This document shows positions 22,138-59,417 of a stretch of DNA of 64,000 nucleotides, in pieces. The notes under the pieces were generated by a model that was not told the DNA's origin, did no database searches, and was given only the letters and a program-made list of their open reading frames with translations. Each line of letters starts with the position of its first letter. The stretch's first letter is position 1. The translations under genes were made by a program, and so were the position numbers. Origin of the DNA: Astropecten irregularis. Taxonomy: Eukaryota > Echinodermata > Asteroidea > Paxillosida > Astropectinidae. Location of the stretch: assembly GCA_963971285.1 (NCBI GenBank), contig OZ020263.1, forward strand, positions 5,580,001-5,644,000. Reading direction: 5' to 3'.

Positions 22138-22560
22138 TCCCCTTTGACTGATCCCCCATGATGTACCGTTCCCAGGTTGCAGCATTGGCTGCGCGTATCG
22201 GTGAAATTATCCTTGTGGTTATGGCTGTGTGTACGTGGTTTCATGGCTTCTGACTGCCAAACCGAACAAGGATAATTAACTATGGGGTCACCACCAACGT
22301 AGGGCTGGATGGCTCATCAGTTGGTAGAGCGCCTGTACGGTATTCAGGAGGTCGCCGGTTCGAATCCTGCTCACAGTTAATTTTTCTTTGCTTACTTTTA
22401 ATGACTTATTATTACTCTCATTGAAAAGTGAACAAAGAAAAGTTGATTGGAGCGGGATCTGAACTAGCGACCCCCGGAATACCATCCGGGGTCGCGTGTT
22501 CGCATCCCGCCGCGGTCAACATTTCTTTGTTCACCTTTCGCTGACTTCATCCACTCAGTT
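22138..22560 (+). repeat. tRNA-core repeat unit plus degenerate second unit
   Basis: The upstream body (CCCAGGTTGCAGCATTGG, GGTTTCATGGCTTCTGACTG) leads to a tRNA-like core at 22303-22377 that carries a small insertion in the D loop. A reversed, degraded core follows at about 22425-22500, giving a tail-to-tail arrangement. Confidence 0.65.
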
Positions 22561-26400: not shown

Positions 26401-28974
26401 AGTCTTTTCATTCTTCGTCATCCTTTGGGGTAAGTTTGTTCAAAATCCTGGCTATTATGATCGGAAAAGGTATGGGTTTTGTTAAGATTTTTTGGCTTTT
26501 CCGCGGAAGCGAAAAGCCTTTAATTTTGTTCTGGTTTTGGCTTTTCTGATTGTGATCGGAAAAGGTATCGCGTTTTGTTCCGATTGAGATTGGAAAAGGA
26601 TACGGTAGGCTATTGTGTTTGTTCGTCTATTTTCTTGTCGTCCTAATCCCATTGACTTTGTACACAGAATTTGCATGCTCCACTTTGCTCACTTTAAACA
26701 GTCAATCTGAACCATACTTGGTGTAAACAAAGTCCCTTATCCCGTAGATGTGCCGCAAACATTTACGTCATCATGACATCATCATGTGTCAAGTGACAGT
26801 ACCATAAAGGGGCAAAAATTACATGCCAATGAACGATCCCTATGTCCGATTGAGTGGAAACTTGGGGCCTGTTTGTTTCACGCAAAGGATCCGATATTTT
26901 GGGATCCACCTCCTATGCAGGGTACGCTAAAATGGGATCCGGACCCGCAGGATTCGTCATGAACAAACTGGCCCTTGATAATTGTCTAAGTCTGGAGATG
27001 TTATATTGAAATATTGCATCGACGTCATCATGACGTCAACCTCTGATTTCTTATGATTTTATTGAAATGTAGGATCATTAAAAGTCTTTTAACGATAACT
27101 TGTGAACGAAAGAAGGTATCTTTGAATTTCTTCCAACAATGTGAAAGCAAAATACTGTGACGTCATCGTGACGTCCCCAAAATGACATTTTTGAAAACAC
27201 ATATAAGTTGACAGGGACCGATCGTATGTGTGTCCGCGATGCTAAATGTGAAACGACAAGGCGACGTATTGGTTGAATTTATAATACATTTTAGCTTCCT
27301 TTATCTCCAGCTAAAGTCAAACTTTTCAGAATGCGCGCATCTGTATGGCAGTGACAAGGCTTGATTGATGAATGATTTTGTGTTCTCTCTTTTTCGTGTT
27401 TTTGAAATGAATTTTGAAAATATTACTAGCATTTCATGTCACCCAGCCCATCCCTAGTGTTAAAGGGTTCTATGTTTCAGTCCAAATCGGATTTTGTTTC
27501 CTCGTTTATGCAGGGATCGGTGTCGCTATGGCTTACATCCCTCCGACTGTCGCTTTGCTGTCTTATTTCCCGACGAACCCCGCCCTGCCGGTCAGTATCA
27601 TATCGGCCGGTAGCGCGCTCGGAATGATGGTCTATCCACCTCTGACGGAGCTCCTGATCGACGCCTACGGCTGGCGAGGAGCCATGTTGATATTCACTGC
27701 TGTAAACGCCAATGTCTGTGTCCTTGGAGCGTTAATCAAGCAATCTCCAGTGGAGTACTCTCCACTTGAAGGCACTACTCATGCCGGTGGCACTACTCAT
27801 GCCGATGACACACCAGATGCTCCTGATGAGAAAGAATCGCGGCATTGCTGTACAACGGCTGCATGGGGTCTTTGCAAAGTTCTGTCTTTGGACGTGCTGT
27901 GGAACGATCCTAGATTCTCGGTGCACGCCTTGGCCTTCTTCCTGCTTGGTATCATGTACAGTGCCTGGATGATCTATCTCGTTCCCCATGCAACCACCAG
28001 AGGGATAGATAACCAACTGGCAACTTTCCTCTCTACAACTGGAGGGATCGGCACCCTGATTGGTCGAATCCTGTACGGACCCGTGTTGCACATGGAGTTC
28101 ATGACACCTGTTCAGATGATGATTCTGTTCAGTTTCACCAACATGGCTGCCTTCTCTCTAGATCCTGTTGTATCCGACAACTATCCGGGTCTCGTGTGCC
28201 TCGCCTTCGTGAACGGTCTGAGCCTTGGGACGATGGCAGGTTTGTTCGTGCTAATCTCCCAGCAGGTCTTGGGCGAAGGCATGGCAGTACGTGGATTGGG
28301 AACGGCGTGCGTCTTCTTCGCGATAGGTGAACTTACTGGAGGAGCATCTGCAGGTAGGACCTTAAGTAGATTTCTGAGTGATTTCCTTTTAAGGAAGGCA
28401 GCATGCATGTATAGGCTGACCCTCAGATGTACTGATCTAATATTGAATGTCCTGGAAACGTACTATTAGGGGGTCCATTTCACCAAACTTATCGTAATTT
28501 ACTATCAATCGACTTAAAATAATGCATAGCAGCTCCATATAAGATGCAATGGGTTATCCTTTGTAACTCGAGTTGCGATCGATCGTAGGGCCTCGTGAAA
28601 TCGAGCCCATGAGTATGTTCTTTTAATGGGAGACTTTTGTTATAAAGGCCTATTTTTTCACCAAAACATTTGGGGTATCTACAGCATCAATACAGATAAA
28701 CTGATATGTGTACTGTGTCTTTCGTAGGCCATTTCCCACCGTCGCGGTCCCAAAACAGCCTTTCCCTCCACTAAAGCTGGACATGGTCTTTTCCTCTTTA
28801 AAACATCTGAAGACCAAGATCTGACAAGGCTGTTCTTTTCTCGTCTCTCCAGGTTGGATGTATGACACATCTGGAAGCTACGACGTCTCGTTCTTGACGC
28901 TTGGTGGTCTAGCGGCCCTTAGCGTATTGGTCTTTGTAGTTGAACGCCTTCTCAACAGGTGCGCTTCTTCTTAG
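23438..28974 (+). CDS. Monocarboxylate transporter-like protein (SLC16/MCT, MFS), five exons
   Basis: Exons 23438-23452, 25245-25434, 26289-26429, 27514-28353 and 28853-28974 join with GT-AG introns in phases 0,1,1,1 to give about 435 residues from MLENK to NRCASS. This is the usual length for this 12-helix major-facilitator family, which moves monocarboxylates or related solutes across the plasma membrane. The N-terminal signature DGGYGWVI (residues 11-18) in helix 1 matches the SLC16 motif. YGWRGAMLIF (helix 5 region) and GIGTLIGRILYGPV (helix 8 region, with the family's Gly-Arg) also fit. A short hydrophilic loop of about 50 residues with a GTTHA repeat separates the halves. The substrate cannot be told from sequence. 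Exon 4 could use an earlier in-frame AG (27480), but 27514 gives the better family fit. Intron 1 carries a SINE and a tRNA-core repeat. Confidence 0.85.
23932..24002 (+). repeat. TTGAATATTCC tandem repeat
   Basis: Six to seven degenerate copies of a 11-12-bp unit (TTGAATATTCC) stand in intron 1 of the transporter. A shorter trace is at 38984 in the second copy. Confidence 0.6.
24005..24310 (+). mobile_element. tRNA-derived SINE
   Basis: The head has Pol III boxes GTGGCCAAGTGGT (A) and GGTTCGAATCC (B, 24072-24082), tRNA-Leu-like spacing, then a body of about 200 bp ending in GATAATAATAAT. It is absent from intron 1 of the duplicate copy, so it was inserted after the duplication or lost there. 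Confidence 0.7.
24375..24905. repeat. tRNA-core repeat, two units in opposite orientation
   Basis: A reversed unit (core remnant 24383-24435) and a forward unit (core 24768-24840) meet tail to tail at a palindrome around GAAACTGACTG/CAGTTTC (24546-24565). The unit lies in intron 1 of the transporter. Confidence 0.7.
26740..27200. repeat. Intronic stretch with clustered TGACGTCA-like words
   Basis: TACGTCATCATGACATCATC, GACGTCATCATGACGTCA and GTGACGTCATCGTGACGTC occur within 430 bp of transporter intron 3. This may be a dispersed repeat; similar text occurs near 40600. Confidence 0.4.
26865..26974. mobile_element. Small GGGCCTGTTTGTT inverted-repeat element
   Basis: The tip GGGCCTGTTTGTTTCACG is matched by CATGAACAAACTGGCCC. 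GGATCC words inside are paired. About 110 bp. Confidence 0.65.
28471..28608. mobile_element. Small MITE, ATTTCACCAAAC type
   Basis: The tip GGGTCCATTTCACCAAACTT and the opposite tip (…GTGAAATCGAGCCC) are inverted. It is the uninterrupted relative of 16125-16500 and lies in the last intron of the transporter. Confidence 0.6.
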
Positions 28975-30732: not shown

Positions 30733-30951
30733 AATACGGGTTCCCGGTGCTTGTCTCCGGGCCAACCCCCCTTTGGCCCAGGGGGTTGTGAGCGGCTGTT
30801 ACACTAACCCGAAGCTATTTAACCTGCGCTGTGAGTGGCCCGATGGCTGTGCGCAGTGCCTTCAACAGCCAATCAAAGGCTCCAGTACATCTAGCTGTTA
30901 GATTTTACGCGCGCTCTCTCCCTCTTCGCCTTTCCTCGCCGAACTGAAAAA
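30733..30951 (+). repeat. Ngaro split repeat A1
   Basis: Begins AATACGGGTTCCCGGTGC. Its 219 bp recur at 36367-36585 without a visible difference. It marks the left end of the element. Confidence 0.85.
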
Positions 30952-31024
30952 ACACGCACGAGAACACTCTCCTCGATCCGTCCGAAATTATTCGGATATC
31001 CTCGCCTAAACATCTACCACAGCT

Positions 31025-32458
31025 ATGAGGGGCCGAGGCAGAAAGAGGAAGCACCCTGATGGATCCAATCTGAGACGATCCGACCGCCCAGTAACGAGAC
31101 AAACTCGGGCACAATCTCGGGCAATTGCGTCGCTCCTTAACCCGGAAGTAGACCGGCAGCCATGCACGAATCCTGCTAGCGTGATGACGCGACAGCGCCC
31201 TCAATCGGCCTCCGCTCCAGTCACCAGCCATGTCAGCTGTGCCGGAACAGTCCAGCCGACCGCTCTGCCATCTTCGACCGCGACAACGGCTGATGCGGCC
31301 CCAAGCCGAAGTGACATCACCGTCCCCCTTCTCCAGGGTACCGGCCAATATGCTCCGACACTCCACCAGCTCGCCAGCCCGCCGGGTTTGCCGACGATCT
31401 CCAACACAACACCTACCATGTCCATGCCTACCGCTACCGGGTCTGGGATTCCCAGGATGGCTGATTGTAGCACCGCCACCAGTAACTGCTACCACTACCA
31501 GTACCACGGTCCTGCCCCCACTGGAGCAAGTTCCAGCTCCACCGCTACCCCGCTGACAACTGCCTCTGGCCGTACTACATTCGGCCAACACCAGAGTCCC
31601 AACTATCAGCCCCATACATCTACTTCAGGTGAGCTGCCTGTTGTTTATTCACAACCTGGGCCGGGAACTGGCTTGCATGTTAACACCAACCCTGCCCCAC
31701 TCAGCCAGCTTACTCAGGCCACATCGAGCACAATCCCCATTATTCAAGAGGGAGGGGAAGGGGCCCTAATTTCCATTTGTGAGCCACTTGGGAATGCCAT
31801 CCCTGTGGGAACACGGGAAAAGATAGTTAAAAGTGAGTTCATTGAGCTTGATACCTTGTTGACACGCCATGGCCCGACCAATCCCACTCCCAATCTTACT
31901 TTTACGTTGGACCAATCTGGCCAATTGTGTCTTAAGGACACAAAGAAGAAAACTCAAATCACATCCATACTGTCATGGACCGACGCGTTTCTAATCTACG
32001 CGTCTGTGTTTCTGTCGGCTCACGCGAGTCGATGCCAAGAGATGCTTAAGTATATGCATGTCATTCGCATGGCGGCTGCCCGCTTTTCCAACCGTGGCTG
32101 GCTCGAATATGATCGACAGTTTAGACTGAGGCAACAGGCGCACCCTAGCAGATCTTGGGCTGTTATCGATGGGGAACTCTGGGCCCTCTATGTAACTGCC
32201 CCTGGGTTTGTACACACTGGCTTGGGGGGTCAGGGGGGAACCCAGCCCTATGGGGCCAAGCGCTTTGCGAATTCTTTTCGCCCATTCCCCCGCACACCAA
32301 CAAGAAACACAAGCCACTGCTTTGCATTCAATCGGGCAACAGGCTGTTCAAGGGCCCAATGCACGTACCCGCATAAGTGCCTCACATGCAACTCCCAACT
32401 TCATGGCGCCTTCGCATGTAAATCCCCCTCAAAGAAAAGCGCCGCTGACCACCAGTAA
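31025..32458 (+). CDS. Ngaro ORF1, gag-like protein (fossil element part)
   Basis: 477 residues, beginning MRGRGRKRKHPDGSNLRRSD. A basic start is followed by a long Ser/Thr/Pro-rich stretch (to about residue 240), a more ordered middle, and a Cys/His-rich tail (CTYPHKCLTCNSQLHGAFAC) that resembles a nucleic-acid-binding zinc knuckle. In this family ORF1 is taken to be the particle or RNA-binding protein. It overlaps the start of the RT frame by about 250 bases in another frame. Confidence 0.75.
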   Translation: MRGRGRKRKHPDGSNLRRSDRPVTRQTRAQSRAIASLLNPEVDRQPCTNPASVMTRQRPQSASAPVTSHVSCAGTVQPTALPSSTATTADAAPSRSDITVPLLQGTGQYAPTLHQLASPPGLPTISNTTPTMSMPTATGSGIPRMADCSTATSNCYHYQYHGPAPTGASSSSTATPLTTASGRTTFGQHQSPNYQPHTSTSGELPVVYSQPGPGTGLHVNTNPAPLSQLTQATSSTIPIIQEGGEGALISICEPLGNAIPVGTREKIVKSEFIELDTLLTRHGPTNPTPNLTFTLDQSGQLCLKDTKKKTQITSILSWTDAFLIYASVFLSAHASRCQEMLKYMHVIRMAAARFSNRGWLEYDRQFRLRQQAHPSRSWAVIDGELWALYVTAPGFVHTGLGGQGGTQPYGAKRFANSFRPFPRTPTRNTSHCFAFNRATGCSRAQCTYPHKCLTCNSQLHGAFACKSPSKKSAADHQ

Positions 32459-34103
32459 TGACTGTCCTGGCAAATCCCCACTCTGTAACACACCTACCAA
32501 CTGCGTTTGCTGCATCGCATTTTCACCCATTTGTCTTGAGAAACTCTCGGCTTGGCTTACCTGTTACCCAAATCAGACTGTCGCCACAATGCTCCACGCC
32601 GGATTCACCACCGGCTTTAGGTTAGGCTATGAAGGCCCCCGCACAGCCAGGGAGGCTGACAACTTGCCATCTGTTAAGAAAAATCCAATACTAGCTGTAG
32701 AAAAACTGAGCAAGGAGGTCAAGCTGGGGCGCATGGCAGGCCCATTCAATGTGTCCCCCATTAGTAACCTTAGGATTTCGCCTATTGGCTTGGTACCCAA
32801 AACGGAACCAAACAGCTACAGACTGATACACCACTTATCCTATCCCGAATTGCACTCTGTGAATGATGGGATTGATAGACAGCTCTGCACAGTAAAATAT
32901 TCTAATTTCGATGATGCTGTTGGGTTAGTGATCAGATCTGGGAGAGGAGCCCTTATGGCTAAGGCAGATATCAAATCTGCTTTCCGTTTGCTTCCAATCC
33001 ATCCAGAAGATTTCTGTTTACTGGGCATACGAGTTGGGAATGACATCTACATTGACAAGACCCTGCCAATGGGGGTGGCTTGCGCACCAGCTTACTTCGA
33101 AAAATTCTCCACATTTCTCCAATGGGTCGTGGACAAACGCACTGGGTCAGGCCATTTATGCCACTATGTAGATGACTTTCTCATGGTTGGGGGTCCGCCC
33201 AATGGGGGGCCACCATCATGCCATACCATCCTGCAATGGCTCCTTACAACTTGCAAGGAATTCGGCATTCCTCTCGCGGAGGAAAAAACTGTCCTCCCAA
33301 CCACACAACTGACATTCTTGGGGTTACAGATAGACTCAATTTCCCAAACAGTAACAGTGCCTACAGATAAACTTGAATCATTGGAAGCCAAGCTGAGAGA
33401 CGCTCTTCGTGCACACAAGCTAACCCTCTCTTGCCTCCAATCACTCATCGGATCTCTATCCTTTGTGTGCCGTGCGGTACCTCCTGGGCGAGCCTTCCTC
33501 AGGAGGCTTACCGATGCCACAAAAGGTGCAAAGCACCAATGGCAAAAAATCAGGCTGACTAAGGGCGCGAAGGAGGACATACTTATGTGGCAGGTTTTCC
33601 TTCGCGACTTTAATGGCAGGACCTTGTTCCCAGATCAGTATTGGCTACTCGATGTAGACTTAGAGTTTTTTACTGATGCTAGTGGGGGGATAGGTTTTGG
33701 TGGATTCTTCCAGGGCTCGTGGTTCAGTGGGAAATGGCCAGAATTCATCCACAAAAAACGGTCATCCATCGCCTGGCTAGAATTCTTTCCCGTAGTAGTG
33801 GCTCTCACGCTTTGGGGAACGGCCCTGGCAGGGAAACGAGTGATTATTCGGTCAGACAATGCCGCGGTGGTGTCGATCATTAATAAACAGTCGTCCAAAT
33901 GCCCCCACATCATGAGATTAGTTAGATTCTTTGTTTTACAATGTCTTCAGGGCAACATTTCCTTTAAGGCCAATCACATTCCGAGCATTCAGAATAACAT
34001 TGCGGACGCACGCTCCCGTTCACAGATGAGCAGATTCAGGCAATTGGCCCCCACAGCTACCCCCTTGGGATTGGAAGTCCCGCCCTTCCTATGGAAGCTC
34101 TGA
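32208..34103 (+). CDS. Ngaro reverse transcriptase/RNase H (fossil element part)
   Basis: The open frame is 631 codons; the real start is unknown. RT signs are LVPKTEPNSYRLIHHLSYPE, MAKADIKSAFRLLPIHPED and the catalytic box HYVDDFLMV (YVDD near residue 320). RNase H signs follow: FFTDASGGIGFGG (near 489), the WLEFFPVVVAL Glu, RSDNAAVVSIIN (near 549) and NNIADARSR. The pattern is DIRS/Ngaro type rather than LTR type, and no protease or DDE integrase is present. It overlaps the recombinase frame by 13 bases. Confidence 0.85.
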   Translation: MYTLAWGVRGEPSPMGPSALRILFAHSPAHQQETQATALHSIGQQAVQGPNARTRISASHATPNFMAPSHVNPPQRKAPLTTSNDCPGKSPLCNTPTNCVCCIAFSPICLEKLSAWLTCYPNQTVATMLHAGFTTGFRLGYEGPRTAREADNLPSVKKNPILAVEKLSKEVKLGRMAGPFNVSPISNLRISPIGLVPKTEPNSYRLIHHLSYPELHSVNDGIDRQLCTVKYSNFDDAVGLVIRSGRGALMAKADIKSAFRLLPIHPEDFCLLGIRVGNDIYIDKTLPMGVACAPAYFEKFSTFLQWVVDKRTGSGHLCHYVDDFLMVGGPPNGGPPSCHTILQWLLTTCKEFGIPLAEEKTVLPTTQLTFLGLQIDSISQTVTVPTDKLESLEAKLRDALRAHKLTLSCLQSLIGSLSFVCRAVPPGRAFLRRLTDATKGAKHQWQKIRLTKGAKEDILMWQVFLRDFNGRTLFPDQYWLLDVDLEFFTDASGGIGFGGFFQGSWFSGKWPEFIHKKRSSIAWLEFFPVVVALTLWGTALAGKRVIIRSDNAAVVSIINKQSSKCPHIMRLVRFFVLQCLQGNISFKANHIPSIQNNIADARSRSQMSRFRQLAPTATPLGLEVPPFLWKL

Positions 34104-35026
34104 ATTCAGAAACTCTACGCCTCCTGGAGGCGTCCATGGCCAGCGGCACTTGGGAGACATACGGGAGGGGTGCCGAACACTTCAACCAATTCCGTCTCGA
34201 AACCAAACTCCCCCCAATGTGGCCTACACCCAGTAGCCACATCGCGGCATTTATCGCACATCTCTCCCTGGAAGGGTTAGCCCCCTCTACTATAGGTACG
34301 TACTTAGCAGCAGTCGCTTACATTCACAAAATCAATGACTGGCCCGACCCCACCAATTCGTTTCTGATAAAGAAAATCAGGGAGGGCTGCCGTAGACAGG
34401 GCCCGCGTATAGACTCTAGGCGTCCAATTACCAAAGATTTACTCTTGCAAATGTGCCGCACTTTACCAGCAATCACATCATCAGACCTTGAGACCGGTCT
34501 GTTTCATGCAGCATTTACCTTAGCATCCTCTGGGGGTCTGCGAGTGGGGGAATTTACTGCAGCTCGTAAGCTGGGCGACCACTCCAAAATTTTGAACACT
34601 GGTGATATCTGGTTCGAGGGTCCGGGCGCGTCCTCGTTGGTCGTTAGGGTCAGGTTTTCCAAAACTGATCAACGCGGTAATTCCACTGAATTGCGACTCA
34701 GTCGCGAACCTCTCTCAGAGATTTGCCCTGTAAGTGGAGTTTCCAACTATCTACGGCTTCGGCCGCCCCTATTGGGTCCCCTGTTAATTCATATTGACGG
34801 ATCCCCCCTCACGACTTACCAGTTCCGCCATATGTTAACCAAGTCCCTGGAGGCGATGGGGTTACCATCCGGGGACTTCAATACCCATAGCTTCCGCATT
34901 GGGGCAGCTACATCTGCTGCCCTTAAAGGCACACCCCTGTCCCAGATCCAGTCCCTTGGGCGTTGGAAATCACTGGCAGAGAATAGGTACATCCGCCCAG
35001 ATAGAATCCTTACTGCCACTCAGTAG
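34091..35026 (+). CDS. Ngaro tyrosine recombinase (fossil element part)
   Basis: 311 residues. An N-terminal SAM-like core-binding half (ASGTWETYGRGAEHFNQF, then PSTIGTYLAAVAYIHK) leads to the catalytic half. Catalytic residues are in place: Arg151 in SSGGLRVGEF, His266 and Arg269 in NTHSFRIGAAT, Trp292 in GRWKS, and nucleophile Tyr300 in NRYIR. The enzyme is thought to insert a circular DNA copy by strand exchange. Confidence 0.88.
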   Translation: MEALNSETLRLLEASMASGTWETYGRGAEHFNQFRLETKLPPMWPTPSSHIAAFIAHLSLEGLAPSTIGTYLAAVAYIHKINDWPDPTNSFLIKKIREGCRRQGPRIDSRRPITKDLLLQMCRTLPAITSSDLETGLFHAAFTLASSGGLRVGEFTAARKLGDHSKILNTGDIWFEGPGASSLVVRVRFSKTDQRGNSTELRLSREPLSEICPVSGVSNYLRLRPPLLGPLLIHIDGSPLTTYQFRHMLTKSLEAMGLPSGDFNTHSFRIGAATSAALKGTPLSQIQSLGRWKSLAENRYIRPDRILTATQ

Positions 35027-35083
35027 GCTCTCACCTTTGACCCCCCCCCCCCCTTCCATACATGTTCCCTCTCTCCCTGCTCT

Positions 35084-35698
35084 TTGTGCTTTTTCACAGG
35101 TACACGCCGCATATGGGCTGTGGGGGACAGTATTGTCTACCGAGCGGCAGCTCACATGCCTCAACAATCATTGCCTGGGACTCTGACCTGGCTGGGTGTC
35201 CGGGGAGCCAAGATCAACTCGTTGGTGCCCGCTGTCCGCACAGAATTGCGCCGGTCACCGGTTCCTGACACGATTATTATTCACCTGGGCACGAATGATT
35301 TGTTCTCGACTCCTATGAAAGAAATCCGCCAAAGGTTGGATGAGGGCCTCAGGGACTTGCGGCGCTTACTCCCATACACCACTATCATTTGGTCAGATAT
35401 CCTCCTGCGCCTCTTTTATTATGGTGAGGAGCGTCCAGGAGTTGGAGAGAGAAACATCAATGCTCTCAACAAGTATGCACATCGTGTGTGCAAACACTTG
35501 GGTAATGCACATGCTATTGTCCATTCGGACAATATCAACCCTGGCCAACACAGCACATACTGGCGGGACGGTCTGCATCTGTCTCTCTCGGGCAACACAC
35601 TCTTCTGCCACAACTTGTCAAGCGCCATTGCCAGTTTTGGGCAAAACCCTGAGGCCCTCCTCTATCACACGGATACTCAACCATTAAGTTTAAATTGA
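35084..35698 (+). CDS. Ngaro SGNH/GDSL-type hydrolase ORF (fossil element part)
   Basis: 204 residues. All SGNH blocks are visible: Ser16 in WAVGDSIVYR (block I), Gly in WLGVRGAKI (block II), Asn71 in IIIHLGTNDLF (block III), and Asp162/His165 in YWRDGLHLSLSG (block V). SGNH enzymes cleave esters, and some Ngaro elements are known to carry one, but its substrate and role in the element are unknown. The frame starts 57 bases after the recombinase stop, in the same frame. How it is expressed is not visible. Confidence 0.82.
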   Translation: MCFFTGTRRIWAVGDSIVYRAAAHMPQQSLPGTLTWLGVRGAKINSLVPAVRTELRRSPVPDTIIIHLGTNDLFSTPMKEIRQRLDEGLRDLRRLLPYTTIIWSDILLRLFYYGEERPGVGERNINALNKYAHRVCKHLGNAHAIVHSDNINPGQHSTYWRDGLHLSLSGNTLFCHNLSSAIASFGQNPEALLYHTDTQPLSLN

Positions 35699-35772
35699 CT
35701 AATCATACTCACAAAGGGAAGAAAAAAGAAGGGGGGGGGGTTGGTGCAAGTTACTTATGTCGTAACTTGTTT

Positions 35773-36368
35773 GGCAAAAATGGGTTTCGTTTTTCTTCCC
35801 AAACATCAAGTCGGGGTGATTTTCTTCACCGGTGTTCTCCCGGTGTCTGCAAAAAAGGTTTTTTTTGTTGCATCAGAGGGCTTTGACCCAAATTCAAGGG
35901 GGGTATCACATTCTGGTTTAATAACCAAAATAATGCATTATTTCTCCATTATTTTATTCAACGTTAATTCACCAAATGATTATACATGTAATTAATGATT
36001 ACAACTGCTGATTCCAGTATTTGTGCTAAAATCTCGCACTGGCAATTTTTAAGACAGTTAATGGTTGTTTATTGACATAATTATATATGCTTTGTTTGGC
36101 GTCCCTTGCCCGTGAACCACGCTCCGGCGCTCTCTGCCCGTGAAGCGCATATCCCTTTAAGATATGCTATTATGGCTTTATACACATACACTTCTATTAT
36201 TACTGGAAGGACTTGTAACTTGTTTAAACTTGTTTAAACTTCATATGCAATGTATACAGTTACAATGTTTACTGATTTGAGATTGCTAGTTATTAAACGC
36301 TCGGCGAGGCTAGGTCGAAGCATATCCAGAGAATTGTGTCGGTGTCCTCTCAACCTCTCTAGGGCCAA
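35773..36368 (+). repeat. Ngaro split repeat B1
   Basis: 596 bp beginning GGCAAAAATGGGTTTCG and ending TCTCTAGGGCCAA. It recurs as B2 at 37189-37784 with no difference seen. It contains CTTGCCCGTGA and CTGCCCGTGA words like those in the 36.9-37.1 kb block. Confidence 0.85.
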
Positions 36369-36585
36369 TACGGGTTCCCGGTGCTTGTCTCCGGGCCAAC
36401 CCCCCTTTGGCCCAGGGGGTTGTGAGCGGCTGTTACACTAACCCGAAGCTATTTAACCTGCGCTGTGAGTGGCCCGATGGCTGTGCGCAGTGCCTTCAAC
36501 AGCCAATCAAAGGCTCCAGTACATCTAGCTGTTAGATTTTACGCGCGCTCTCTCCCTCTTCGCCTTTCCTCGCCGAACTGAAAAA
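36367..36585 (+). repeat. Ngaro split repeat A2
   Basis: 219 bp identical by eye to A1, joined directly to the end of B1. Confidence 0.85.
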
Positions 36586-37188
36586 CCCACCCACCCTCCA
36601 CTGTAAAGTGGCCTTCGGGGTTTCTGGTCAAACCAGTTATCCTCCTTTTGTATTTAAGCTGTTGTCTTGGTTACCGTATTTACCTGGCTTATCTGGCCCG
36701 TAGATGTGAGTCGTTGAACGGTGTAACTTGCCCATCGTCCACATGATTGTGTCCAACCAGGCTGAACTTGTCTTGGTTACTGTATTTACCTGGCTTATCT
36801 GGCCCGTAGATGTGAGTCGTTGAACGGTGTAACTTGCCCATCGTCCACATGTGTCAATGTGACAATGCTTGGCGTTCCTTGCCCGTTTTGCATCGGTTAA
36901 CTTGTTTTGTGCTTGGCATGTCTTGCCCGTTAAGTTAACGAGAATCGGCATGTCTTGCCTGTTGGAATACAAGTCAGGGCAAAGAGTTCCTTGGCGTTTC
37001 TTGCCCGTTTTTTGCCAGAGTTGACTTGTTCATTATGTTATCGCCAATTGGCGTTTCTTGCCCGTGAGTTTGTGGCATGAACGTTTCTTGTTTATGCTCG
37101 ATGTAACCTGCATGGGAAGAAGGCCTATCCTTATATACATTAGGCTCAGCTGTGCCATATGGCAAAGGCCTCTATATATCAGGGGTCA
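36586..37188 (+). repeat. Tandem-repeat block between A2 and B2
   Basis: An 82-bp unit beginning GTCTTGGTTACCGTATTTAC occurs at 36664-36745 and 36770-36851. After it the word GGCRTKTCTTGCCCGTT recurs about five times (36869-37065). No coding frame. Confidence 0.75.
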
Positions 37189-37784
37189 GGCAAAAATGGG
37201 TTTCGTTTTTCTTCCCAAACATCAAGTCGGGGTGATTTTCTTCACCGGTGTTCTCCCGGTGTCTGCAAAAAAGGTTTTTTTTGTTGCATCAGAGGGCTTT
37301 GACCCAAATTCAAGGGGGGTATCACATTCTGGTTTAATAACCAAAATAATGCATTATTTCTCCATTATTTTATTCAACGTTAATTCACCAAATGATTATA
37401 CATGTAATTAATGATTACAACTGCTGATTCCAGTATTTGTGCTAAAATCTCGCACTGGCAATTTTTAAGACAGTTAATGGTTGTTTATTGACATAATTAT
37501 ATATGCTTTGTTTGGCGTCCCTTGCCCGTGAACCACGCTCCGGCGCTCTCTGCCCGTGAAGCGCATATCCCTTTAAGATATGCTATTATGGCTTTATACA
37601 CATACACTTCTATTATTACTGGAAGGACTTGTAACTTGTTTAAACTTGTTTAAACTTCATATGCAATGTATACAGTTACAATGTTTACTGATTTGAGATT
37701 GCTAGTTATTAAACGCTCGGCGAGGCTAGGTCGAAGCATATCCAGAGAATTGTGTCGGTGTCCTCTCAACCTCTCTAGGGCCAA
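37189..37784 (+). repeat. Ngaro split repeat B2 (right end of element)
   Basis: Copy of B1. The host flank resumes at CAACCTGTTTCGTG. Confidence 0.85.
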
Positions 37785-42071: not shown

Positions 42072-42445
42072 TAGTCATCAAATAACCACAAGGGAAACTG
42101 ACTGAATTTAAAGTCATTGAAAAGTGAACAAAGAAAAATTGACTGGACCGGGATTCGAACCGGCGACCTCCTGAATACCGTACAGGCGCTCTACCAACTG
42201 AGCTATCCAGCCCTACGTTGGTGTTGACCCCAATAGTCAATCAATTATCTTTGTTCGTTTGGCAGTCAGAAGCCATGAAACCACGCACACATCGCCATAA
42301 TCCAAGGATCATTTCACCGATTCGCGCAGCAATGCTGCAACCTGGGAACGGTACATGGGGATCACTCAAAGAGGATAACCACAATGGAAACTGACTGAAT
42401 TTAAAGTCATTGAAAAGTGAACAAAGAAAAATTGACTGGAGCGGT
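42072..42445 (-). repeat. tRNA-core repeat, one full unit plus start of the next
   Basis: Unit order on the plus strand: tail (ACCACAAGGGAAACTGACTG), reversed tRNA core (42141-42213), body (GCCATGAAACCACGCACACA). At 42377 a second tail starts in the same direction, so the units are direct tandem repeats of about 305-330 bp. Confidence 0.75.
42141..42213 (-). tRNA. tRNA-like core of the repeat
   Basis: 73 nt with a full cloverleaf layout, A box TAGCTCAGTTGG and B box GGTTCGAATCC on the minus strand. The formal anticodon GGT has C33. As with the copy at 1641, it is probably a repeat core and not a working tRNA. Confidence 0.35.
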
Positions 42446-47916: not shown

Positions 47917-48319
47917 GTTGGCTTGACTCTGCAGTCGTCCATATCACTCAACGCTTGAGCACTGGAAGGCATTGATATTTGTTTTGTAGACCAGCACTGT
48001 ATAACATATCTTTGACGCATCGTTTTCAGGATTCTGACTGGTCAAGTTTGAACAAATTGCTGCTTTTACATAAGAACTCGTATATGGAAGCAGTGAATCT
48101 GTGATACACATGAACCCAAAACAGGAGACATCATATCAGCTGGTTGCAAAGAGTGGTATCCATCACACTGTGTAATCTGGAGTTCAGTTTGGCTTTCAGT
48201 TTCTCTTCATCAACTCAACAAGGGTTGCAGCATCTTAACAACCATAGGAGATTAATAGGAATATAAGTCACTGTACAAATCTTAATTCAGTCTCTTCACC
48301 TATCACTACAAGCATCAGT

Positions 48320-49318
48320 ATGAGAGTCGCCATTACAGTCTTGTTGATGACATTTATGACAGGAAACTGTGAGGGGGAGTGTCTGACTCAGTTAAGTCAT
48401 TTCACTTCCAACTTCTTTATGGCCAACAATTTTGCTTTGATACATCATGTATATCAAGCAAAGAATACATCGTCTGCTGTGACATGTGCGATAGATTGCA
48501 TGATGGATCCACAATGTGCATCATTCAACTATTATGAGAGTAGCCACTGCTGTCAGATGAATAAAAATAGCAGGAATATGGATCATTGCAACTTTGTTAA
48601 ACTGCAAGGGAGTGCCTACTTTGATAAAAACTATGAAACACCATTATTTGCAACATATTCACATGCCAAGTTCCAAAGCTGTCAGATGTGGCTTCAAGCT
48701 GGTTACCATGACAATGGTATCTATACCATCTATCCTCCTGGACTGTGTTATGGCATACAAGTATACTGTGACATGACGACCGCTGGTGGAGGCTGGATAG
48801 TATTTCAGAGGCGTCAAGATGGCTCTGTTGACTTTTACCGTGACTGGGTTGACTACCAATCTGGATTTGGTATTCTATCGGGTGAGTTTTGGCTTGGAAA
48901 CGAACATATTAAAAAAATTACGGGAAATGGACAGTGGAAATTGTATTTAGACATGGGAGACTGGGAGAATAACACTGCCTGGGTTGAGTACGGTGATTTT
49001 AGAATTACAGGTGAAAATTACACACTCAATGTTGGCTTATATAATACTAACAGTACTGCAGGTGATTCACTAGCAGAGCATAATACACACCAATTTTCAA
49101 CAAAGGATCGGGACAATGATGTAAGGTCAGATGCAAACTGTGCAAAAAAATATGGGGGAGGTGCATGGTGGTTCTTTACATGCTTGAAGTCTGACTTCAA
49201 TGGGAAATACCTCGATTATCCTAGCGAAAGGTTTCCAAAGGGTATACAATGGTATCACTGGAAGTGGAAATGGTATTCCTTGAAGGAATGCAGCATGAAA
49301 TTAAGGGAAGTCATTTAA
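48320..49318 (+). CDS. Secreted fibrinogen-related protein with PAN/apple-like domain
   Basis: 332 residues in one exon. A signal peptide (MRVAITVLLMTFMTGNCEG) is followed by a Cys-rich PAN/apple-like module (about 21-98, with VTCAIDCMMDPQCASFNYYE) and a fibrinogen C-terminal domain (about 117-331). Fibrinogen-domain marks are YCDMTTAGGGWIVFQRRQDG, SGEFWLGNEHI, the calcium-site type KDRDNDVRSDANCAKKYGGG, AWWFFTCLKSDFNGKYL and the closing YSLKECSMKLREV. Such proteins are secreted lectin-like binders of sugars or acetylated groups, often in invertebrate immunity or adhesion; the ligand here is unknown. The first ATG after the upstream leader gives the signal peptide, so the start is well supported. 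An intronless frame suggests retroposition or intron loss, though an upstream non-coding exon is possible. Confidence 0.88.
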   Translation: MRVAITVLLMTFMTGNCEGECLTQLSHFTSNFFMANNFALIHHVYQAKNTSSAVTCAIDCMMDPQCASFNYYESSHCCQMNKNSRNMDHCNFVKLQGSAYFDKNYETPLFATYSHAKFQSCQMWLQAGYHDNGIYTIYPPGLCYGIQVYCDMTTAGGGWIVFQRRQDGSVDFYRDWVDYQSGFGILSGEFWLGNEHIKKITGNGQWKLYLDMGDWENNTAWVEYGDFRITGENYTLNVGLYNTNSTAGDSLAEHNTHQFSTKDRDNDVRSDANCAKKYGGGAWWFFTCLKSDFNGKYLDYPSERFPKGIQWYHWKWKWYSLKECSMKLREVI

Positions 49319-49597: not shown

Positions 49598-50055
49598 TAA
49601 TCATCAAATAACCACAAGAGAAACTGACTGAATTTAAAGTCACTGAAAAGTGAACAAAGAAAAATTTACTGAAGCGGGATTCGAACCGGCGACCTCCTGA
49701 ATACCGTACAGGCGCTCTTCCAAGTGAGCTATCCAGCCCTACGTTGGTGGTGACCCCAAAAGTCAATTATCTTTGTTCGTTTGGCAGTCAGAAGCAATGA
49801 AACCACGCACACACTGCCGTGCCCCAGGGATCGTTTCAATGATACACGCAAGCAATGCTGCAACCTGGGAACGGTACATGGGGGATCACTCAAAGAGGAT
49901 ACGGCTGTTTAATTAATATAATCATCAAAGAACCACAAGGGAAACTGACTGAATTTAAAGTCATTGAAAAGTGAACGAAGAAAAATCGACTGAAGCGATA
50001 TTCAAACCGGCGACCTCCTGAATACCGTACAGGCGCTCTAGCAACTTAGCTATAA
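49598..50055 (-). repeat. tRNA-core repeat, two tandem units
   Basis: A first unit (core about 49667-49739) and a second (core about 49989-50053, decayed) stand in the same direction about 325 bp apart. Each begins AATCATCAAA..AACCACAAG. This is the clearest direct dimer of the family in the window. Confidence 0.75.
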
Positions 50056-54342: not shown

Positions 54343-55239
54343 TTAGACAAGCTCTTTTTCTTGTCTCTGCCATCTTGGGTTCCTTCCACTTCTCAAACAG
54401 TCGTTGTCCTTTGCTAACTTTCTCTTGGCGTGACAGGGGTTGCTGTAGTCTGTGCTGTCTGTTCTGACCAAGAAGATTCGAGTCCGTATGGGCCTTGGAC
54501 TAGGTGGTGAGTGGTATTCCGTGCTCTTAGTGACATTGGCTTCTTGTACGTTCTCATTGACACTTTCTGTGGGTTGAAAGGTCAAAGAAGGAGAAGTGTC
54601 TTCTGCACTATACACTTGCGGAGTCAATTCTGGAGGTGATAAAGATGAAGATGCAGAATTGTCTCTGGGTATGTCATGTTTCATTACTGGAGTGAGTACT
54701 GGTGGTGATATAGAAGGAGACGCCATTTCCACAGGAAAGAAAGCAATGTCTATTTCTTCATCACTTGTCTCACTACTCTCCATGACTGACTTGTCGACAT
54801 CCTCGTTATGCTCTGTCTTCTCTGCTCTCTCCTGTATATTTGATGTCTCATTCTCCATCTTGGCATCGTCTTCCACGGGCAGAAACATGCATGGGGTGAA
54901 AAGGTTTCTATGCACAGTTCTCTCTTTGCCAGTGCCAAGGGAGCGGACGGTGTAAACCGGCAGATCTGCATGTTTACTGGTTACGACGTAAGGATGTGGC
55001 TCCCATCGGTCTGCCAACTTGCTGGTTCCAACTAGGTGTTTGTTCTGAATCAGAACTCTGTCACCTGGATGAAGAGGAGCTACTTGGGTGCCTCTGTCGT
55101 ACAGACGTTTTTGTTTCGTCTTTGCTTGCCGGACGAGGTCACTGGCTCGTTTGTAGGCACTTTGTAGCCTGTTTTTGAGCTGCTCCGTGTATTCATCGTA
55201 GGCGGGTGCGTCTTGTTGTGTTGCTTTCAGTCCAAACAT
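54343..55239 (-). pseudogene. Integrase C-terminal region and tail (fossil element part)
   Basis: It reads KNRLQSAYKRASDLVRQAKT, then the chromatin- or DNA-binding-like HPGDRVLIQNKHLVGTSKLA and YVVTSKHADLPVYTVRSL segment, then a Ser/Glu-rich tail. This is the usual end of a Ty3/Gypsy Pol protein. Confidence 0.65.
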
Positions 55240-55595
55240 CAGGTCTACCGGTAAGTTGGGATGTCTATACCGAACATCAAGTAGAAGGGGGCATATCCCG
55301 TCGACTCGTGGCGAGTTGAGTTATAGGCATGAGTCATAACTCCGACGTAGAAGTCCACCTTCGATGGAGACATCTGCGGGTGTGAGCTGGATGTCTTGGA
55401 GCTGAGGGTGTGATTTCCATAACTCATCTGTGATGGAAGTTATTTGAGATCCAGAGTCAATTAAGGCCTGGTAGATTTCACCATTTACTTCAACGCCGTC
55501 CTCGTTGTTAGGACCGATGAGTTGTTGGTGGTCTGGCTTGGATTGCTCATGGTGATTTGTTGAAGCTGGAGAGGGTTGAATTGGTCTGTTGTTAA

Positions 55596-56999
55596 CTACT
55601 GGGCTGTGGTGTTTTGGGCCTCCGACGGCTTGCCCTCCGGCCGTTGGCCCTGGGAGTTTAAAGGCTTATTCCTGCAACCTCTGGCGATGTGGCCTTGCTG
55701 TCCGCATATGTGGCAGGTAAAAACTCGAGTGTCGGATGAAGCCTGGCCTGTCATCTGAGTCCTGGGCCGTCGAGGGGGCCTTCTGGAAAATTCCTCTACC
55801 TTCAGGGTCAACTGCTCTACCTTTTGAAGAAGATCTTGAAGGACATCATGGTCAGTTTTCTGAAGTGGGCTTTTGGAGTCAGAGGTTGCTGACATGGGCA
55901 GCTTAGATGGTTGTGGCTGTTGCTGACATGATCTGGACTGTTGAGACTGCGCCTTTGAAGTCAGCTTCAGGGCTGCAGCCATGCGAGATTCTCTCTCAAG
56001 TTGTCTCAGCTCGACCTGTACCTCGTGGAACGTCATTTCTCTGGGTTTCATTGGGGCTAGTCGCTGTGTCACCTTGTCATCTCTCACACCTCTCATAAAC
56101 TGCTGTGTCAACATACTGTTTCTGTGAGGTAGAGGGCCGGATCTCATTCTTTCCTCAACACAGCGAAGAGTTGCTTCCAGTTCGACGGAGTATATTGTCG
56201 GGGACTCGTTCGGGTGTCTAATTCGCTCGTAGAAGTCTGCAAGCGGGTCACCAGTGAGTAGGATCTCTCCAAACTGGGCTTTCAACTCGATGAACGCATG
56301 CTCTGCTGTCTGCTGATGCGGTGGAAGGTTGAGTACCAGCTTACTTGCTGATCCTCCCAAATATCTCACAATTGTAGAGAACTGCATGTCCCTGGGTATC
56401 GATGTAGTTTGGAGGAGATATTTAGTGTCTCTAACCCAATCCTCGATGCAGATGGTAGATCCTTCTCGTCCGGTGAATATAGGCACACTCTTCACTTGGT
56501 GGGACGACAAAAGGTGAAGTTGGGGTGAAGGAGACCGAGGTTGCCTTCCAAAAGTTGGGTGATTTGACGAGAGACTTGGAGGATGAGACGAGGTCGAAAC
56601 TCGTGGTTGTCGAGGTGGTCCAGCGGGACCATAGACGGAGGGAGATGAGTCATGTTGGAGCCGCTGGCGATGAAGTGGTAATTGAGTTGGATGACGACGT
56701 GGCATGCTCTGTGACATTCGTCGCTCGATGTCATCAATCTCAGCAAGAAACTGTTCTGCAAGAGGCTGGTATTTATCTCCAGAAGTAGGGGACGTCTGTG
56801 GCAGTTGGCTCCGGATGTTGAGTGGATGTCTCTGAGGGGTGAGTATGGGTGGTGTGTGGTGCTTCGGGCGTGTCGATAAGGTTGACGGACGAGCAAAGGT
56901 TGTGGCTGGCGTTGGGAAAAAGTCATCATCGGACCGTTTTCTGGAAGTGGCCATCTTGTAAGGAAGAAGACAATCTAAGTCTACAAAACCACAGCCCAA
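55596..56999 (-). CDS. Gag-like ORF with CCHC zinc knuckle (fossil element part)
   Basis: About 450 residues, probably from MATSRKRSDDDFFPTPATTF. A Pro/Ser/His-rich N-terminus precedes a helical capsid-like middle (FTGREGSTICIEDWVRDTKY, AFIELKAQFGEI, DPLADFYERIRHPNESPTIY) and the knuckle CHICGQQGHIARGC near the end. A retropepsin-type stretch follows downstream in element sense. Confidence 0.7.
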   Translation of the reverse strand: MGCGFVDLDCLLPYKMATSRKRSDDDFFPTPATTFARPSTLSTRPKHHTPPILTPQRHPLNIRSQLPQTSPTSGDKYQPLAEQFLAEIDDIERRMSQSMPRRHPTQLPLHRQRLQHDSSPSVYGPAGPPRQPRVSTSSHPPSLSSNHPTFGRQPRSPSPQLHLLSSHQVKSVPIFTGREGSTICIEDWVRDTKYLLQTTSIPRDMQFSTIVRYLGGSASKLVLNLPPHQQTAEHAFIELKAQFGEILLTGDPLADFYERIRHPNESPTIYSVELEATLRCVEERMRSGPLPHRNSMLTQQFMRGVRDDKVTQRLAPMKPREMTFHEVQVELRQLERESRMAAALKLTSKAQSQQSRSCQQQPQPSKLPMSATSDSKSPLQKTDHDVLQDLLQKVEQLTLKVEEFSRRPPRRPRTQMTGQASSDTRVFTCHICGQQGHIARGCRNKPLNSQGQRPEGKPSEAQNTTAQ

Positions 57000-58304
57000 A
57001 CAAAACTAATGTACACTGAAAAATGGAAATGGTGGCAATCGGCGCTACCAGAAACACATTCAAATACGGTATCAAATAAATCAGATCAAGTTCTAAATGA
57101 AAATGCAATGCCAAGATTACAGGAAGAACAATTAAATGAAGTCAAGAAACGGGTTAAAAATAAGAGGCAAATATCAAACCAATTATCAATCAATTAAATC
57201 AATGACAATTGAAAATAAACAAGCAATTCCAATCGATAAACAAATCCAACAATCAATGTTAACTGTGAAATCAGCTAGTGAAATGCAAATCAATCGAAAA
57301 TGCAAGAATACAACAAAATCATTTATAGCGTATGGTCCTACATACACTGTATGAAACTACTAAAAACATTCAATAGTATGGATCGAGAAAGCGAAGAAAT
57401 CTGTTTCAAAATTCTCGGGCAAAAACAACTGTGCAAATTAGAAAAATGTTCGAGAGTGTCTCAAGGGACCTACACTCGGCAGGTATGTTATTCCACTGAC
57501 AATGGCTTCTTACATAACATACACAGTACAGGAATGTTAAGCACACTAGAACAGCTTAGATTCCTAATGAAAATGCAGTCTTTGTGTTCATAGGTTGCTA
57601 TGGGGACTTACAAAGAGTCTTGCAACAGCTCCGTGGCGTCTTGATCGGTGCGTGTTTTCCGGCCGAGTTCCCCGATTGATGATCGGCATAACGGGAACCA
57701 ATGTGACCCTAGATGGAATGTCACTGTCTTGAATGGTGCAATCGACGAAACAATGAGTGTCTGTAGCAACCGTAACTATCGACGCATCCGGTGCACTGTA
57801 AAATGTTCTGTTGGCCCACCGAGGATCTTTGCCGGTTAAATAAGTGGAAGACCATCCAACGCAATCCCAGGAACGGTGGTGATCCGAGGATCACAGGGGC
57901 GGTGCAAGGCCGTCGGTCGTCAGGATAAGGCCAGAAGTATGGTAAGGATCGCCGTTCGACGTCGCGAGGAAATGTTGGTAATACCGTCAGTCTTCAGGCG
58001 ACACGGTTCCAACCACCAAGCAGGAACTGGAAGAGCAGGGGACGAAACATCAGCTGGCCCGGGAAGGAACGAACTAGTCTGGAGCGAAGCGGTCGGCCTG
58101 AGGACACTGAACGGGCAACCAGGGGACGAAGCAGCCGGCACGGTGGCAAAGCAGGCGGTCGGCCCGGTCCGGCCCGGCCCGGTCACTGGGCGGCTGGCCA
58201 AGCGGCGGAACTATGGAGACCAACTGTGCGGGGAAGCACACTGGTGAGGGTTACCGAAATGGTTGTGGTGGGCCTACTCAGACGTCCAGATGTCTTGGAT
58301 GCCG
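57000..58304. other. Unassigned interior of the LTR fossil
   Basis: An AT-rich part (57000-57600) and a GC-rich part (57640-58300). No known domain is recognised. Confidence 0.35.
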
Positions 58305-59258
58305 TCATGTATTGGTAGGACACAGGCTTGAAATGTTGATGTCTGCCGTTGAAGTGCCTCTACCCGGATCTTCCACCAATGTGTGTTTGTTCTGAATCAG
58401 AACTCTGTCACCTGGATGAAGAGGAGCTACTTGGGTGCCTCTGTCGTACAGACGTTTTTGTTTCGTCTTTGCTTGTCGGACGAGGTCACTGGCTCGTTTG
58501 TAAGCACTTTGTAGCCTGTTTTTGAGCTGCTCCGTGTATTCATCGTAGGCGGGTGCGTCTTGTTGTGTTGCTTTCAGTCCAAACATCAGGTCTACCGGTA
58601 AGTTGGGATGTCTACCGAACATCAAGTAGAAGGGGGCACATCCCGTCGACTCGTGGCGAGTTGAGTTATAAGCATGAGTCATAACTCCGACGTACTGCTT
58701 CCAGTCTTTCTTCTGGTCTGCTTCAAGTGTACCGAGCATGTTCAGTAGTGTATGGTTGAAGCGTTCGGTGAGACCGTTTCCCTGGGGGTGGTAAGGAGTG
58801 GTACGGCTCTTCTTGATCCCTGAGATTTTGCAGAGTTCCTTGATAAGCTGGCTTTCAAAATTCCTGCCTTGATCAGCATGTATTCGGACTGGGAAGCCGT
58901 AGTTCTGAATGATCTTCTCCCAGAGAACCTTTGCGACTGTATCTGCTTTCTGGTCGCGAGTGGGGAATGCCTGGGCGTACTTCGTAAAATGATCTGTTAT
59001 TACCAAGATGTTTTCAAAGCCGCCTTTGCTTCTCTCGAGCTTGAGGTAGTCTATGCATATAAGTTCCATTGGCTCGGTGGTGTTGATGTTGACCAGAGGA
59101 ACTCGAGCTTTGGTGGACGGGGTCTTCCTAAGACAGCATCTCTTGCAGCGTTCGCACCATTGTTTGATGTCTTGCGCCATCTTGGGCCAGAAGAAGACGA
59201 AACAGTGTTGATGAGTCTTCGTCATAGATTGATATGAGGGAAGCGCGCGAAAAGCCAA
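58305..59258 (-). pseudogene. Integrase core region (fossil element part)
   Basis: Zinc-binding end (DIKQWCERCKRC), then the DDE-type catalytic core with ELICIDYLKLERSKGGFENI, ITDHFTKYAQAF, HADQGRNFES and TTPYHPQGNGLTERFNHTLL. This is typical of Ty3/Gypsy integrases. Confidence 0.7.
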
Positions 59259-59417
59259 GCATAGCTAGAGGGCGCTTCACAAATTTGAATAATTTATACA
59301 GGCAAATAAAGAATGATTACATAATAAGGTATGGGTTGGCCAAAAATAAGCGGGGGGTGTTAAACTAAATCAAATTTTTTATATGACCGTCACACACCCA
59401 ATTTGACCAAGTCAAAG

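Follow-up and report, generated by a model that had tools for sequence, protein, structure and literature searches.

The stretch of the Astropecten irregularis genome analysed here is 64,000 nucleotides (nt) long (GenBank assembly GCA_963971285.1, contig OZ020263.1, positions 5,580,001 to 5,644,000; hereafter the window) and contains, at 30733–37784, a recently inserted and complete Ngaro-type tyrosine recombinase (YR) retrotransposon whose SGNH hydrolase is probably made, in the manner of a retroviral env product, as a fusion to the N-terminal part of the element's first open reading frame (ORF1) from a spliced RNA. The kind of element is already known. Its assignment to the Ngaro-like elements (order DIRS) follows from split direct repeats in the order A1 ... 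B1 A2 ... B2, a reverse transcriptase (RT) with RNase H, and a YR in place of a DDE integrase; as in Ngaro-like elements, no methyltransferase domain was matched in the four ORFs (Pfam, E up to 0.1). The A1/A2 repeats, spaced 5,634 bp, are identical at 219 of 219 positions and the B1/B2 repeats at 596 of 596, aligned over their full lengths, and the repeat limits return 30733–37784 exactly, which bears out a first-pass annotation of the window that had described a whole-looking Ngaro-type element with identical-looking pairs of A1...B1-A2...B2 repeats. An AA dinucleotide at 36367–36368 is common to B1 and A2, and we read the resulting GGGCC-AA-TACGGG as an archived circle junction. The spacer between A2 and B2 holds an 84-bp repeat pair and several short TTGGCGT..CTTGCCCGT motifs, one of which is also found inside each B repeat. 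Among four further families of related elements, three have two long repeat pairs, and the available piece of the fourth (family C, L051) spans the A pair only; a 70-bp array follows the second A-type repeat in that piece.

The coding region consists of a Gag-like ORF1, ORF2 (RT/RNase H), ORF3 (YR) and the SGNH frame (Table 1). Profile searches of the four ORFs gave RVT_1, Phage_integrase and Lipase_GDSL_2 as anticipated, with ORF1 unmatched in Pfam; the RNase H models fell short of their cut-offs, with 17.8 and 15.2 bits where 24.8 and 21.6 are required, yet matched in the expected place. The full catalytic sets that the annotation had ascribed to YR and SGNH are backed by these matches, by alignment and, for YR, by residues located by eye from the recombinase motif. 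SGNH/GDSL blocks I (GDS), II (Gly), III (GTND) and V (DxxH) are all present in the window copy, and an alignment of six families shows no variation in GDS, the Gly pair G33/G36, GTND or DGxH. An AlphaFold2 single-sequence model was poor, with a mean predicted local distance difference test score of 50.3. The RNase H end of ORF2 reads IADARSR in the window copy and IADALSR in five matched copies (L020–L024; CGC for CTC), a change private to the window copy that may weaken it.

A search of the genome (475.7 Mb, 168 contigs) found seven near-identical copies including that in the window, which represents family A, plus degraded relatives; this supplies the copy count that the annotation had proposed. 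The six other copies, 99.1–99.7% identical to the window copy over the main aligned blocks, are called C27, C29, C11 and, on contig C1, L010, L012 and L014, names to be kept apart from family C. SGNH is open in all seven copies; C27, C29 and C11 have a broken YR, and C27 also a broken ORF2. In one contig C1 copy (C1b, L012) ORF1 and ORF2 are continuous in a single 1,030-aa open frame.

How the hydrolase might be translated is constrained by its start and by the gap that precedes it. In the window, the SGNH frame contains no Met from the preceding stop to the catalytic Ser, the first Met lying after the Ser, and 14 of 17 families have no Met in the stretch from the last stop to W-x-x-GDS (one of the 14, family R, has a piece that ends before a stop). 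The distance from the YR stop to SGNH in the seven copies is 72, 73, 70, 71, 77, 78 and 79 nt (modulo 3: 0, 1, 1, 2, 2, 0, 1), mainly because the length of a poly-C run varies, and since it falls in all three frames, the gap behaves as non-coding DNA. Between families, the YR-to-SGNH frame step is 0 in A, B and D, −1 in C and +1 in F, and the ORF1-to-ORF2 and ORF2-to-ORF3 steps are constant in all five. Frame variation and the missing Met argue both against an AUG of the hydrolase's own and against a fixed read-through or frameshift. Joining of YR and SGNH by stop-codon read-through or ribosomal frameshifting, to which the window copy lends itself with SGNH in the YR frame one TAG away, as do B and D with SGNH likewise in frame, is very improbable given the three frames among the copies and the steps of 0, 0, −1, 0 and +1 among the families. 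A free-standing fourth ORF with its own start (by re-initiation, an internal ribosome entry site or a non-AUG codon), as drawn for Xenopus Ngaro elements, would fit the open frame after the YR stop, the upstream Met in families C, L and P, and the account in PMC9210276 of an additional ORF with all reading frames overlapping. We nevertheless regard it as unlikely, as it would predict neither the phase-1 acceptor nor the ORF1 donors described below, in addition to lacking an upstream Met in most families; a non-AUG start is conceivable. The annotation's term "separate SGNH ORF" was thus misleading, as the region has no AUG before the catalytic Ser, keeps no fixed frame relative to YR and resembles a 3' exon.

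Several features suggest that the hydrolase is such an exon. Splice sites were scored with weight tables of generic metazoan frequencies, and in each of the 17 families the acceptor was taken as the best-scoring AG within 45 nt upstream of the conserved SGNH part. Immediately ahead of the conserved part there is usually a pyrimidine tract that ends in AG, and 15 of the 17 families have their best acceptor AG in codon phase 1; scores across the 17 range from −3.9 (M) to 9.9 (E). The AG-free stretch before the acceptor has a median of 41 nt, compared with 11 nt for 2,183 AG-AG gaps in five elements. Donors were scanned in the five whole elements (A, B, C, D and F) from 320 nt before ORF1 to the ORF3 end, and sites above 4.5 bits occur only in ORF1 in A (two), B and C and only in the YR Arg motif in D and F, all in phase 1. 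Both the predicted donor and the predicted acceptor are kept in all seven family A copies.

The ORF1 linker carries a phase-1 GTGAGT-type donor above 4.5 bits in 13 of 17 families where codon shuffles lead one to expect 2.38 (P = 5.9e-9, a guide only, as the shared ancestry of the families means that it overstates their independence). Sense-strand linker donors above this threshold number 2, 13 and 0 in phases 0, 1 and 2, and ten of the 13 phase-1 donors lie 51–88 residues before a KEKI-like motif (that of L063 lies 11 before, and for L055 and L059 other reference points were used). The 17 were counted from 22 ORF1 sequences (17 pieces, L054–L070, plus A, B, C, D and F) after dropping L054 (sister of L055, with a piece that ends before the expected donor place), L057 and L058 (broken sisters of L056 and L068), L060 (no ORF1 recognised) and L066 (near-duplicate of L065); the donor sequence of L057, L058 and L066 is that of their respective sisters, and in L058, whose frame is broken, it falls in a different phase. 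Linker borders were set by hand; ORF1 of L067 lacks an initial Met, and in L055 and L059 a frame break closes the linker. A comparison of Gly-Glu codons was set aside as circular, since a phase-1 G/GTGAG itself spells Gly-Glu. Eleven of the 17 families (A, B, C, E, G, H, L, N, P, Q and S) have donor and acceptor both in phase 1, E and Q by pairing sites from sister copies, so that GT-AG ends, consensus context and compatible phase are found together in the window family and in 10 of 16 others, with D, F, J, K, M and R each failing on one of these.

On the proposed scheme, unspliced RNA would be both the genome and the mRNA of ORF1 and, somehow, of ORF2 and ORF3. Some of the RNA would be spliced from 31628/31629 to 35099/35100, removing 3,471 nt and with them the Cys/His half of ORF1, RT/RNase H and YR. 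Translation of this message would begin at the ORF1 start codon and join ORF1 residues 1–201 in frame (G/GT) to SGNH, and the fusion, sharing the ORF1 N-terminus, could co-assemble with ORF1. The putative intron would have a similar length in other families (B 3,453, C 3,494 and D 3,471 nt) and in the other family A copies (3,469–3,478 nt in five; 4,792 nt in C27, which has an insertion). We infer the splicing itself and the fusion product from the sequence, and consider an ORF1(N-terminal)-SGNH fusion the probable form of the hydrolase.

A number of observations weigh against this conclusion. Single donor-like sites are not rare, with seven above 4.5 bits (any phase) in antisense linkers. Families F, J and K have no phase-1 ORF1-linker donor above 4.5 bits, the strong site of J being in phase 0, and the best ORF1 donor of D, in phase 1 and 65 residues ahead of the KEKI-like motif, is weak at 4.0 bits; D and F instead have a phase-1 GTGAGTTT in the YR Arg motif as a possible other donor. 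The acceptor of M is in phase 0 with the lowest score of all, the best-scoring AG of R is in phase 2 (a nearer phase-1 AG is present), and acceptor scores are weak (0.9–3.3) in H, J, L, N and P. To these must be added the upstream Met of C, L and P already mentioned. Finally, no intron-less genomic copy was found with a junction probe for family A, the only family probed, or among the SGNH loci surveyed, of which 29 of 30 have an upstream YR match and the remaining one, L032, keeps the pyrimidine-AG. The probe (a 25-mer, up to 3 mismatches) gave a single match, L080, which does not match the element and does not look like a copy of it.

Part of this evidence would be accommodated if SGNH were a spliced 3' exon with a different donor, which could lie in a leader preceding ORF1, at 31833 (the second ORF1 site) or in YR, where D and F have one. 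The acceptors are better conserved than the ORF1 donors, F, J and K have the phase-1 acceptor with no phase-1 ORF1 donor above 4.5 bits, and the GTGAGTTT sites of D and F are in the required phase. We think this improbable, considering that every site above 4.5 bits in the scanned part of A, B and C lies in ORF1 and that 13 of 17 families have the linker donor. The ORF1-SGNH fusion may be one product of a broader arrangement. The start of YR in the window (33998–34030) contains a possible phase-1 3' splice site, CGTTCACAG. Its CAG is in phase 1 in A–D, the families for which phase was computed, and a CAG occupies the same place in seven of eight families; the corresponding Gln is CAA in F, which has another strong phase-1 acceptor, and in the family C copy L040, and the signal is confounded by the conserved RNase H end. 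An ancient and general env-like splicing in this Ngaro lineage, with the ORF1-linker donor serving several phase-1 acceptors (SGNH and perhaps the YR start) and the ORF1 N-terminus as common head, is a tentative extension that we hold to be possible but doubtful.

Is the hydrolase maintained by selection? The annotation had argued so from the youth of a copy with every catalytic residue kept. This argument is invalid: relative to the window copy, the six other copies carry nonsynonymous and synonymous changes in ratios of 8:1 in SGNH, 8:2 in ORF1, 12:1 in ORF2 and 3:2 in YR, and are too young for the ratio of nonsynonymous to synonymous rates (dN/dS) to inform, with no sign of constraint among them. 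The dN/dS comparison that the annotation had put forward is thus uninformative within the family. Between families, the proportion of synonymous differences for SGNH of A against B, C and E is 0.76–0.82 (saturated) and that of nonsynonymous differences 0.31–0.39; the sole pair of intermediate divergence, C and C3 (L032), gives a dN/dS of 0.20, but C3 is a decayed copy in which Thr replaces the catalytic Ser and which lacks an upstream YR. An SGNH match lies within 1.5 kb downstream of 57 of 60 full-length, stop-free YR matches (by coordinates, strand unchecked), and the three without one are 31–32% identical to the window YR; this survey scored 127 of 292 candidates, so that the genome counts are lower bounds. 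Selection on SGNH is thus visible between families, not from the youth of the window copy, and the annotation's conclusion stands on the between-family constraint and on the pairing of YR with SGNH. That the hydrolase is a functionless passenger or relic would agree with the lack of constraint among within-family variants, with the Thr of C3, with the broken SGNH frames in the E and G copies read, and with the lack of a function proven in print (PMC9210276). It is hard to square with the between-family constraint, with catalytic residues invariant across six aligned families, with the 57 of 60 YR matches accompanied by SGNH, and with an SGNH frame open in seven of seven copies though YR is broken in three, and we give it very little credence.

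In Rous sarcoma virus, env is translated from a spliced subgenomic RNA using the gag start codon. The scheme proposed here is alike in that a downstream protein would be obtained by splicing out gag-pol and using the gag start; the two are not homologous, Ngaro exon 1 would supply about 200 residues, and the product would be an enzyme where that of env is a glycoprotein. By sequence, the nearest solved relative of the hydrolase is the ORF1p esterase of the zebrafish long interspersed nuclear element (LINE) ZfL2-1, of the CR1-L2 group (4C1B; PMC3905857), which the six-family SGNH profile matched with an E-value of 5.9e-19, followed by platelet-activating factor acetylhydrolase at 4.6e-8. The ZfL2-1 esterase has hydrolytic activity and binds phospholipid, and a membrane-targeting role is favoured for it (PMC3905857). 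As predicted for the Ngaro enzyme, that esterase is joined to the ORF1-type protein of its element, but the LINE domain is encoded inside ORF1, whereas the Ngaro domain sits 3.5 kb downstream and would depend on the predicted splicing for its fusion. By analogy with the proposal for the LINE esterase, the fusion might serve to associate the element's particle with lipids or membranes, and our guess is that such contact is the most likely role of SGNH.

SGNH domains in Ngaro elements are already known (PMC9210276, PMC6681497). Xenopus DIRS-53_XT (PMC9210276) shares the A1 ... B1 A2 ... B2 plan, a gag-like ORF, RT/RNase H, YR followed by SGNH, and the lack of a methyltransferase; it differs in that SGNH is treated there as an ORF in its own right that overlaps its neighbour, whereas here there is no AUG start and the splice signals point to an ORF1 fusion, and in B repeats of 152 bp as against 596 bp. 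The bdelloid Vesta elements, which are long terminal repeat (LTR) retrotransposons, also carry an SGNH/GDSL hydrolase (their ORF3) in the env position, and LTR-retrotransposon ORF3s are described as typically expressed from spliced messages; LINE esterases do not cluster with their ORF3s, and "Ngaro" does not occur in the main text of that paper (PMC5408684). No report of Ngaro SGNH splicing was found in the literature searched, an earlier mention in Goodwin and Poulter 2004 or Poulter and Butler 2015 being possible, and no word beginning "intron" occurs in the main text of PMC9210276, PMC3783388 (on fungal Ngaro), PMC2685390, PMC4157794 or PMC6681497. Among other sequence collections, relatives were limited to one weak match in viral_contigs (L081), with none in genome_contigs. 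The proposed expression plan appears to be new, and the sequence signals support it well. If it is correct, the enzyme would be part of the ORF1-type protein, like the esterase of those LINEs that carry one, rather than a loose fourth gene, and there would be a retroelement, outside the LTR elements and retroviruses, that diverts a share of its RNA through splicing to an accessory protein and reserves unspliced RNA for its replication.

The copies also bear on how the element inserts. Insertion with no target-site duplication beyond the core, and with ends matching the internal junction, is typical of Ngaro-like elements. On the left, an AA in the flank directly precedes TACGGG (TACCGG in C29) in all seven copies, which on the right finish with GGGCC-AA. 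The contig C1 copies (5.68–5.78 Mb) lie inside a tandem array, a neighbouring unit of which, CACCACAATAT, is the empty site of CACCAC-AA-(element)-TAT. Ends and empty site would fit a circular intermediate that recombined at a core of two nucleotides, AA, with no further duplication. The full A1-B1-A2-B2 plan is present in the window copy, C27, C29 and C11, and the three contig C1 copies have A1-ORFs-B only, without A2 and B2. Because they share flanks, these three probably derive from one insertion; their shortened form may have arisen by circle resolution at two B-A junctions or by recombination between B1 and B2, followed by duplication of the array.

Table 1. Features of the element in window coordinates; ORF spans run from stop to stop unless a start is stated.
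Feature	Position	Strand	Details
A1 split direct repeat	30733–30951	+	Same as A2; left end; element proper from TACGGG at 30735, after AA
ORF1 frame, stop to stop	31010–32458	+	482 aa
ORF1 from its start, Gag-like	31025–32458	+	Basic N-terminus, variable linker, conserved C-half with Cys/His cluster
Predicted exon 1, coding part	31025–31628	+	201 codons + 1 nt
Predicted 5' splice site TCAG/GTGAGC	31629–31634	+	Phase 1; 7.2 bits, top donor in ORF1–ORF3 of window copy
Second, weaker donor AAAA/GTGAGT	31833–31838	+	Phase 1; 5.0 bits; possible alternative
Predicted optional intron	31629–35099	+	3,471 nt; ORF1 C-half, RT/RNase H, YR
ORF2, RT (YVDD) and RNase H	32196–34103	+	635 aa; RVT_1 6.6e-13
ORF3, YR	33998–35026	+	342 aa; Phage_integrase 6.2e-7
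Presumed YR catalytic residues	Arg 34541–34543, His 34886–34888, Arg 34895–34897, Trp 34964–34966, Tyr 34988–34990		By eye
SGNH frame, stop to stop	35027–35698	+	223 aa; Lipase_GDSL_2 6.2e-12
Poly-C run	35041–35053	+	11–20 C across seven copies; alters YR/SGNH frame relation
Predicted 3' splice site TTTTTCACAG/G	35090–35099	+	Phase 1; 71 nt upstream AG-free
Predicted exon 2, SGNH hydrolase	35100–35698	+	Pfam, alignment, profile
SGNH catalytic positions	Ser 35129–35131, Asn 35294–35296, Asp 35567–35569, His 35576–35578	+	Six-family alignment, profile
SGNH block II Gly	G36 at 35204–35206, or G33	+	Six-family alignment
B1 repeat	35773–36368	+	596/596 identical to B2
A2 repeat	36367–36585	+	Identical to A1
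A2-B2 spacer	36586–37188	+	603 bp; outside both repeat pairs
B2 repeat	37189–37784	+	Right end ...GGGCCAA

Elsewhere in the window, pieces of an LTR-type retroelement lie on the minus strand at 54343–59264, with an rve integrase core (1.7e-14) and a zinc-knuckle ORF below the cut-off. An open frame at 48248–49318 with PAN and fibrinogen C-terminal domains (1.4e-61) is probably a host gene or exon, and another at 27411–28469 matches the Major Facilitator Superfamily (5.5e-18). Two tRNA-Thr(GGT) genes are present on the minus strand (1641–1713 and 42140–42212), along with two more Rfam tRNA matches at 49666–49738 (minus) and 22304–22378 (plus).

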